From assembly GCA_021825585.1 (NCBI GenBank), contig JAKAGT010000005.1:95265-159264 (forward strand): a stretch of DNA of 64,000 bases, given 5' to 3'. This DNA comes from Bacteroidota bacterium (GTDB lineage: Bacteria > Bacteroidota > Ignavibacteria > Kryptoniales > JAKASW01). A program made the translations under genes and the position numbers. Positions 37,850-40,550 of the stretch are shown piece by piece (the stretch's first letter is position 1; each line of letters opens with the position of its first letter). The notes beneath the pieces were generated by a model. The model worked only from the letters and a program-made list of their open reading frames with translations, was not told where the DNA came from and did not search any database.

Positions 37850-37957
37850 GTTCTTAATCTCCTTTGGTTTTTGTTATTTATTGCAGCTTGATTTGTGGTG
37901 AATAATCTATTCACAAAGCGACAAAGCAACTTCGGAACCAATTTCAAGAACCGCGAA

Positions 37958-37986
37958 TATTAGTTGGTTGCTTAAACCAACTAATA
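37958..37986. promoter_or_regulatory. 12-bp perfect palindrome, likely repressor operator
   Basis: TATTAGTTGGTT (37958-37969) and its exact complement AACCAACTAATA (37975-37986) around GCTTA. It begins right after the -10 box of the nagB promoter and covers the expected transcription start, the classic place for a repressor. The binding protein is unknown; no regulator gene is adjacent, so a GntR-, LacI- or ROK-type amino-sugar regulator elsewhere is inferred. A hairpin role in the mRNA is a weaker alternative, as no T-run follows. Confidence 0.75.
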
Positions 37987-37987
37987 T

Positions 37988-38016
37988 ATATTATCAAAGT
38001 AATTGCTCGTTGTCAA
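37988..38016 (-). promoter_or_regulatory. Sigma70 consensus promoter for nagB
   Basis: On the minus strand TTGACA (38016-38011), 17-bp spacer, TAATAT (37993-37988). The -35 matches perfectly and the -10 at four of six positions including the key A2 and T6. It directs transcription toward nagB with a 5' untranslated region of about 130 bases. Confidence 0.75.
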
Positions 38017-38122
38017 GGCTATTCTTACCTAGGTCCCTTCTGGTCGGTCCTTCCTGCCTCCGGGTTCTCCTCCCGAGTTACCCCAAAAAGGGTTCCATAA
38101 GTCACCTTGAACGCAAACAAAC

Positions 38123-38150
38123 TTGAATCATAGCACCCCGGCGATTTAAT
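38123..38150 (+). promoter_or_regulatory. Possible promoter for the NagB-PIG-L fusion gene
   Basis: TTGAAT (38123-38128), 16-bp spacer, TTTAAT (38145-38150), about 58 bases upstream of the ATG at 38208. Moderate matches only. It lies roughly 140 bases from the nagB promoter and operator, so shared control is possible but not shown. Confidence 0.35.
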
Positions 38151-38207
38151 TTACTCCCGAGGCGCTCATAATTTTCTTCAGATAAACCACAAGGAACTAT
38201 CCGGAAA

Positions 38208-40550
38208 ATGAAAACAAATACGACGAAAGTCGAACAACTCGCAATAGAAAAGTCAGGACAGAAACTTCAATATTCCCCGTCCGAGAAGGTGGGAGTAATT
38301 GTAGTTGACAACTTCCCTTCCCTTGGCAAATTGACGGCTCTGCGATTTCTTGAATGGGTTCAACAGAATCCCGGCGGAGTGGTTTCCCTCCCGACAGGAA
38401 AAACACCCGAACATTTTATAAGATGGGTCACTCGTTTTGTCGATCAATGGAACAGCCCTTCGGTCAGAGAAGAACTTGAAGAAGGAGGAATCACGTCAAG
38501 TGAAAAGCCAGATGTAGGCAGCCTCCACTTCGTGCAGATCGACGAATTTTATCCCATACACCCAAAACAACAGAACAGCTTCTACTACTATGTAAACAAG
38601 TACTACATGCATGGATTCGGCTTTGACCGTTCTAAAGCGCTCCTGATTGACGACAGCAAAATCGGACTACCTGCCGGAAAGCGAATGACTGACGTTTGGC
38701 CCGATCAAACGGTTGATCTGTCCCTTCGATACAGGCAGCCTAAGACTCGGGAGGAGAGACTCCAGAAGTCTGTTCTAGAAGACATTGATCAGTGGTGTGC
38801 AGAATATGAGGAGCAGATAAGGTCGCTGGGAGGGATCGGCTTCTTCCTCGGCGGCATCGGTCCCGACGGACACATCGGTTTCAATGTCAGAGGGTCTGAC
38901 CTCAACTCCACCACGCGATTAACCGCGACCAACTATGAAACGCAGGCGGCCGCGGCAACCGACCTCGGCGGCATCGAAGTGTCCCGGAATCGCCTCGTTA
39001 TCACGATCGGGTTAGGTACCATTACCTACAACAGGTCATGCACCGCGATAATTATGGCTGCGGGCGAAGCAAAGGCGGAGGTTGTGGGCGATGCCGTTCA
39101 GAAGAAGATGCACGTACGACATCCAGGCACTGTTTTGCAGCAACTCCCGAATGCCAGATTCTACCTGACCAGAGGGGCGGCGAAACTTTTGTCTGAGAGA
39201 AACTACGAGCTTCTTGCCGCACAGGAGGTCATACCTGACGAGGAGACGGAGCGGATCGTTGTGGATTTGGCAGTGGCAAAGCGAAAAAGAGTGCGCGAAC
39301 TGACGGTGAAAGATTTCGAGAGCGACCGCTTCAGCGAGCTCCTTCTTACCAGACGAAAAGAGAGCTGCCAGCAAATTGTCGACGAAATTGACAAGAAGCT
39401 GACCGAGAAGGTCGAACTGGGACGGATGCCGCATTCCAATGAAGTCTTTCTGCACACGGAACCACACCATGACGATCTCATGCTCGGTTATCTTCCATAC
39501 ATTGTGCGTCATGCCAGGGATGCCTCGAACAGTCACACTTTCCTCACGCTTACTAGCGGCTTCAACGCGGTTACGAATTCATACATGCTCGACCTGCTGG
39601 GCAATCTGAAGCGATTTCTGGACGACGGTTCGTTCAGCAAGTTGATAAACGAGGGTTATTTCAATCCGCACGACGAAACAAAGAGGAACCGGGACGTCTG
39701 GCAGTACCTCGACGGTGTTGCTGAAAACAATCTCAGAACCAGAGCCGAAGGCGAGGCGAGAAGACTACTTCGAAACCTTGTTTTCCTGTTCGAAGACGAC
39801 AACATCCAGAATCTGAAGAATAGGATCGATGAGCTCGCTAACTATTTCAACACTCAGTACCCCGGCAAGAAAGACCTGCCGCACATCCAGAGGCTGAAGG
39901 GAATGATGCGCGAATGGGAGGCCGACTGCCTGTGGGGGTACTTCGGATTCAATGGACAGTCAATTCTTCACGCACGGCTCGGGTTCTACAAGGGCGACAT
40001 CTTCACCGAGGAACCCAAAATAGAGCGTGACGTCCTCCCTGTTCTGAATGTGCTGAGGAAAGTGAAGCCGACAATCGTGGGAGTTGCTCTGGACCCGGAA
40101 GCAAGCGGTCCAGACACGCATTACAAAGTTTTACAGGTAATGTCCGAGGCCCTGAAGATGTACGAAACTGAATCAGGTCGTTCAGACATAAAGGTCATCG
40201 GTTATCGTAATATCTGGTACCGGTTTCACCCTGCGGAAGCCAACGTGTTTATCCCTGTCTCGCTCAACATGTTTGCCATTCTGCAGAATTCGTTCAACAA
40301 TGCTTTTGGTTCACAGCGCGGCGCCTCCTTCCCGAGCTACGAACATGACGGACCGTTTTCTGAGCTGGCACAGCGGATTCAGGTGCGGCAATATCAGAGG
40401 GTGAAGACCTGTCTTGGGAGGCAATACTTCAACGAGCATCCAAGCCCCCTGATACGAGCAACGAGAGGACTTGTGTTCGCAAAGCTCATGAATCTGCAGG
40501 AGTTCTACGACACCTGCCTTGCGCTTAGAAAATCGACGGAAGATTTATAG
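38208..40550 (+). CDS. Glucosamine-6-phosphate deaminase-like domain fused to PIG-L deacetylase-like domain
   Basis: 780 residues. The first ~330 residues are NagB-like: VVSLPTGKTPEHFIRW, FVQIDEFYP, and GGIGPDGHIGFNVRG at about 215. From about 400 a PIG-L/LmbE-type deacetylase follows, with the zinc motif EPHHDDLMLGYLP at about 418 and further family-like sequence to the C-terminus. Such fusions occur in Bacteroidota and could deacetylate and deaminate GlcNAc-phosphate or a related sugar. Location opposite nagB and beside nagA supports amino-sugar breakdown; which sugar is inference. Confidence 0.88.
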   Translation: MKTNTTKVEQLAIEKSGQKLQYSPSEKVGVIVVDNFPSLGKLTALRFLEWVQQNPGGVVSLPTGKTPEHFIRWVTRFVDQWNSPSVREELEEGGITSSEKPDVGSLHFVQIDEFYPIHPKQQNSFYYYVNKYYMHGFGFDRSKALLIDDSKIGLPAGKRMTDVWPDQTVDLSLRYRQPKTREERLQKSVLEDIDQWCAEYEEQIRSLGGIGFFLGGIGPDGHIGFNVRGSDLNSTTRLTATNYETQAAAATDLGGIEVSRNRLVITIGLGTITYNRSCTAIIMAAGEAKAEVVGDAVQKKMHVRHPGTVLQQLPNARFYLTRGAAKLLSERNYELLAAQEVIPDEETERIVVDLAVAKRKRVRELTVKDFESDRFSELLLTRRKESCQQIVDEIDKKLTEKVELGRMPHSNEVFLHTEPHHDDLMLGYLPYIVRHARDASNSHTFLTLTSGFNAVTNSYMLDLLGNLKRFLDDGSFSKLINEGYFNPHDETKRNRDVWQYLDGVAENNLRTRAEGEARRLLRNLVFLFEDDNIQNLKNRIDELANYFNTQYPGKKDLPHIQRLKGMMREWEADCLWGYFGFNGQSILHARLGFYKGDIFTEEPKIERDVLPVLNVLRKVKPTIVGVALDPEASGPDTHYKVLQVMSEALKMYETESGRSDIKVIGYRNIWYRFHPAEANVFIPVSLNMFAILQNSFNNAFGSQRGASFPSYEHDGPFSELAQRIQVRQYQRVKTCLGRQYFNEHPSPLIRATRGLVFAKLMNLQEFYDTCLALRKSTEDL

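Follow-up and report, generated by a model that had tools for sequence, protein, structure and literature searches.

A palindrome over the expected nagB start site is probably the operator of a ROK-family repressor acting in trans in a Bacteroidota bacterium

What controls nagB in this 64-kb stretch of DNA (the window), and does the palindrome in front of it belong to a wider regulon? The preliminary description reported the promoter TTGACA-17-TAATAT on the minus strand, followed at once by a perfect 12-bp inverted repeat, and proposed a repressor responding to amino sugars. We confirmed this arrangement, with a gap of 1 bp between promoter and palindrome (Table 1), and found the repeat to be slightly longer than described, with 13-bp arms (ATATTAGTTGGTT at 37957-37969 and AACCAACTAATAT at 37975-37987, in the nagB intergenic region) and a 5-bp spacer. 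No other perfect inverted repeat in the window reaches 12 bp with a gap of at most 20, and none of such size occurred in 20 dinucleotide shuffles of the 64-kb window. On its own, the TTGACA/TAATAT match is unremarkable (3 found, 3.8 expected). Transcription of nagB is expected to start about 7 nt past the -10 element, which is within the repeat, as had been claimed. We looked for a terminator-like site at the palindrome and found none. The reported absence of an adjacent regulator gene also held, with none seen among the open reading frames at 32-44 kb and no ROK gene on the contig.

Table 1. Features of the nagB region, with positions in the window.
Feature	Position	Strand	Details
GlmU-like UDP-GlcNAc diphosphorylase/acetyltransferase, 424 aa	35725-36999	minus	TIGR03991 454 bits, cut-off 225
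nagB, glucosamine-6-phosphate deaminase, 260 aa	37067-37849	minus	TIGR00502 320 bits, cut-off 237; PF01182
Proposed ROK operator, perfect inverted repeat	37957-37987	n/a	arms 13 bp, spacer 5 bp; core TTAGTTGGTT-N5-AACCAACTAA
nagB promoter, -10 element TAATAT	37988-37993	minus	17-bp spacer; 1 bp before 29-bp operator
nagB promoter, -35 element TTGACA	38011-38016	minus	
Best candidate promoter of the 780-aa gene, TTGAAT-16-TTTAAT	38123-38150	plus	9/12, weak
Divergent 780-aa gene, glucosamine-6-phosphate-deaminase-like, below family cut-offs	38208-40550	plus	NF002557 194 bits, cut-off 384
nagA, N-acetylglucosamine-6-phosphate deacetylase, 390 aa	40604-41776	minus	TIGR00221 326 bits, cut-off 226

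The idea that the palindrome serves both divergent genes as a joint control element is not supported, because it sits on the nagB promoter only and the best promoter of the 780-aa gene lies about 140 bp away. We rejected direct control of the 780-aa gene on this ground, and that gene is probably not a direct target. No operator motif was seen at nagA in a motif scan of the window. The GlmU-like gene lies downstream of nagB, an arrangement also found in several congeners, and the two are possibly on one transcript.

We searched the window genome (G000, 4.97 Mb) with patterns and profiles. The exact palindrome motif has a single copy; the next best copy has 3 mismatches and closely precedes the gene for a 408-aa ROK regulator. 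The relaxed pattern TTAGTT-N13-AACTAA, with at most one mismatch, occurs at 6 places: one is the nagB site, two precede the 408-aa ROK gene and one precedes another ROK regulator, so that three are in ROK upstream regions; the remaining two are beside a transposase and within a coding sequence. We discarded a motif match at C39:66565, which is inside a coding region. At L024:16140-17525 (G000:C50:272139 onwards), a transposase gene of opposite orientation, IS256-like as judged by eye, comes after a motif copy and promoter and is perhaps an insertion between an operator and its former gene.

There are 13 ROK-domain genes in the window genome, and three paralogues (C42:12708-13940, C42:70622-71809 and C25:29584-30771) form one subfamily, which is present in 25 of 391 genomes of the class (E-values of 1e-95 or better). 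In about 20 related genomes, regulators of this subfamily carry a promoter-operator module before their own gene. The motif scores at least 17/20 in 18 of 27 regions upstream of subfamily genes–a set in which a few loci are near-duplicates and three belong to the window genome–as against 0.06% of shuffles; members without a clear site include those in G382, G002, G012 and G247. The usual module is TTGACA-17-TATAAT, 1 bp, then the operator, and the geometry of the nagB promoter is exactly equal to it. From 10 such modules, none of them from the window genome or from its nearest congener (G006), we made a sequence-only profile, R1, and used it to score the 150 candidates that ranked highest at first look in each genome. 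Among the candidates so scored across the entire 4.97-Mb genome, the nagB promoter comes out on top (31.3 bits, E = 1.2e-6), followed by sites at ROK genes (E = 8.7e-4 and weaker), and the best match in G006 is again nagB (E = 3.0e-7); these E-values are rough by the tool's own statement. The suggestion that the motif could define a regulon found support. The motif class shows wide conservation, both in front of ROK regulator genes and in amino-sugar clusters.

Many of the regulator genes have a second palindrome, a putative operator, placed 63-97 bp further downstream, and this pairing suggests cooperative binding or looping. Second palindromes at this distance precede ROK genes in L073, L074, L075, L098, L113, L117, L119, L122, L124, L125 and L126. 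Near nagB we found no convincing second operator, the best candidates scoring 11/20 in the window and 13/20 in G006.

The best candidate for the regulator is the product of C42:12708-13940 in the window genome, a 411-aa ROK protein that would act on nagB in trans. It has a C-terminal ROK domain (PF00480, 170.5 bits, cut-off 22.9), an N-terminal winged helix-turn-helix in the segment PISRINIARLTGLNKSTVSSI, and the ROK zinc-binding motif CxCGxxGCxE, read by eye from the translation as CTCGNNGCWE; its orthologues from KSB1 and G075 have MarR/HTH_24 Pfam matches. In Escherichia coli, the ROK protein NagC controls the nag genes. NagC is also the closest NCBIfam profile to the candidate (NF047937, alignment over residues 20-406) and matches it in proposed role, but at 183 bits the candidate is far under the 650-bit cut-off and is not a NagC equivalog or orthologue by that test. 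A tree groups the candidate with proteins from G006, G003, G265 and G140, with support of 93/87, just below the starred level. In the window genome the candidate gene is not beside sugar genes, and its own upstream site is a weaker palindrome (15/20). We left out of the evidence a ROK regulator that adjoins the 780-aa gene in G007, with a similar one at that place in G001, since the tree puts the G007 protein on a long branch outside the subfamily.

Conservation at nagB itself is confined to part of the genus. Between the window and G006, the arms are identical at 26 of 26 positions and the promoter at 25 of 29, as against 214 of 300 (71%) in the rest of the intergenic region and 55% at nagB third positions, and so the operator in G006 shows selection-like conservation. 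The genus has 8 close nagB orthologues (83-100% identical, these two genomes included). The site is absent upstream of nagB in the five congeners that we scored (G003, G007, G008, G010 and G011), and a pattern scan found none in G005; G003 has an orthologue of the ROK regulator and the same divergent gene pair, yet no palindrome at nagB. The preliminary description had staked its reading on the motif recurring elsewhere and being conserved upstream of nagB orthologues. This was borne out only in part, because just two of the 8 orthologues were found to have the motif: the site is kept at nagB in G006 and the motif class occurs elsewhere, but the exact motif is found once in the genome and is missing from the other close orthologues examined. 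Since the scored congeners lack the site, the membership of nagB in the regulon is either recent or often lost.

In other genomes, the module is linked to chitin and amino-sugar genes. In the KSB1 record JAJDAF010000019.1, the operator is followed by genes for the ROK regulator, a ROK kinase, an orthologue of the 780-aa protein (55% identical) and a transporter, all co-directional. In G140, operator, ROK regulator and ROK kinase are followed by a SusC-like receptor, transporters and hydrolases, ending in the 780-aa gene, and in G265 the same beginning, SusC-like receptor included, runs through to nagA and nagB. G075 and G049 have the ROK regulator, ROK kinase, SusC-like receptor, GH18 chitinases, transporter, 780-aa gene and nagB. 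The GH18, ROK and NagB domains in G075 and the ROK and NagB domains in KSB1 are Pfam-confirmed, and the other names in these clusters were read from sequence. As relatives of the candidate head the chitin or amino-sugar clusters in all five of these genomes, the inducer is probably chitin-derived.

The operator itself resembles that of a xylose regulator. The ROK protein XylR of Bacillus subtilis binds TTAGTTTGTT-TGGGC-AACAAACTAA (full site TTAGTTTGTTTGGGCAACAAACTAA; PMC12034463), and XylR sites of this type are also described in Anaerocellum bescii (PMC12285236). The core in the window has the same 10-5-10 layout and TTAGTT-type half-sites, sharing 9 of 10 half-site bases with XylR (one change per half-site), and the ROK site in G075 carries the XylR half-site exactly; XylR, however, controls xylose genes, whereas the window site is at amino-sugar genes. 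In role, two further ROK regulators of nag genes are close parallels. Thermotoga maritima ChiR controls chitobiose and chitin use, has nagA and nagB in its regulon and responds to chitobiose (PMC3750489), and NagR of Bifidobacterium longum subsp. infantis represses nagB, nagA and related genes from palindromic operators and is released by GlcNAc and its derivatives (PMC9599254). Our comparison with ChiR is one of role, and that with NagR one of published description. NagR differs in being actinobacterial. ChiR belongs to a Thermotogales locus with an ABC transporter, in contrast to the SusC-like receptors, GH18 chitinases and 780-aa deaminase-like gene in Bacteroidota and KSB1, and the regulator gene lies apart from the nagB site in the window. 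We propose release by a chitin-derived sugar at the nagB site, as for ChiR and NagR.

Taking this evidence together, we consider it likely, with good confidence, that a ROK-family repressor acting in trans, with C42:12708-13940 as the best candidate, uses the palindrome as its operator and is released by a chitin-derived amino sugar. The earlier proposal of a repressor operator linked to amino sugars would then stand in outline, ROK being the fitting family among the GntR, LacI and ROK families it had named. An unlikely variant is that one of the other two paralogues uses the operator, or that all three do so in overlapping fashion. Each of the two shares 60% identity with the candidate, and the ROK gene at C42:70622-71809 adjoins nagA-like and nagB-like genes, with a near match, TATTAGTTGATTTAATATATCAACTAATA, upstream of it; yet the paralogues' own sites are TTAGTTGATT or TTAGTTAATT rather than TTAGTTGGTT, and their recognition-helix region reads LNKGTVSN where the candidate has LNKSTVSS. 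We favour the candidate because G006 keeps the nagB site with only one ROK protein of the subfamily at E below 1e-55, an 89% identical orthologue of the candidate (G006 is 90% complete). Separately, this second amino-sugar locus (G000:C42, L022:5715-11337) contains the ROK regulator, a FadR-like GntR regulator, the nagA-like and nagB-like genes and two motif copies.

We see very little chance that the resemblance to ROK sites is coincidental and that a LacI, GntR or other repressor binds here, even though start-site palindromes are common to many repressor families, the regulator of the nagB site is not adjacent, and a FadR-like GntR gene lies beside the ROK gene just mentioned. The profile built from ROK-gene promoters puts the nagB site first in the genome, among the best 150 candidates scored, and the linkage of operator, ROK gene and deaminase recurs in KSB1 and other genomes. 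An RNA element in the 5' leader of nagB, for instance a hairpin or an attenuator, is slightly less probable again: a 12-13-bp stem could form if transcription began upstream of the repeat, but the start is expected within it and a full hairpin would therefore go untranscribed, no terminator-like site was found there, and the motif sequence itself, beyond its pairing, is common to ROK promoters. Least credible is a chance palindrome. One perfect 24-mer motif could conceivably arise by chance in a genome of 5 Mb, but the window shuffles gave no such repeat, the arms are fully kept in G006, and the nagB site has the exact promoter geometry of the ROK genes.

The mechanism that we propose for the ROK repressor is as follows. 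A dimer would bind over the nagB start site, just past the -10 element, and block initiation; its release by a chitin-derived amino sugar (chitobiose, GlcNAc or GlcNAc-6P) would allow expression of nagB, possibly together with the GlmU-like gene. In related bacteria, chitin and amino-sugar clusters begin with the same regulator and site, which makes the nagB site a new and clearly traced example of an ordinary sort of sugar-gene switch. Equal weight can be put for and against a broader proposal: that an undescribed chitin/GlcNAc ROK regulon spans an Ignavibacteria-like Bacteroidota lineage and KSB1, with a fixed module nearly identical to the xylose operator of Firmicutes; that nagB in this genus was recently captured by copying or evolving the module, the regulator gene drifting away from its targets; and that the second operators allow looping. 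We found no description of such a regulon in the literature that we searched, which gives partial coverage. In a little-studied, mostly metagenome-assembled lineage, the analysis gives amino-sugar genes a regulator, a motif and a likely class of inducer, and the motif can be used to annotate the regulon. It also illustrates how an operator can stay conserved among ROK regulators for different sugars, and how regulon membership turns over at nagB within one genus.

The window genome also contains a second ROK-like motif, TTGGTTTGTTGACCGAACGAACCAA, at C50:171245-171269, C50:195040-195064, C50:200252-200276 and C25:27464-27488 (G000). One copy lies just upstream of a ROK regulator at C50:200380, the motif is also present in G011 and G002, and it probably marks a separate sugar regulon.
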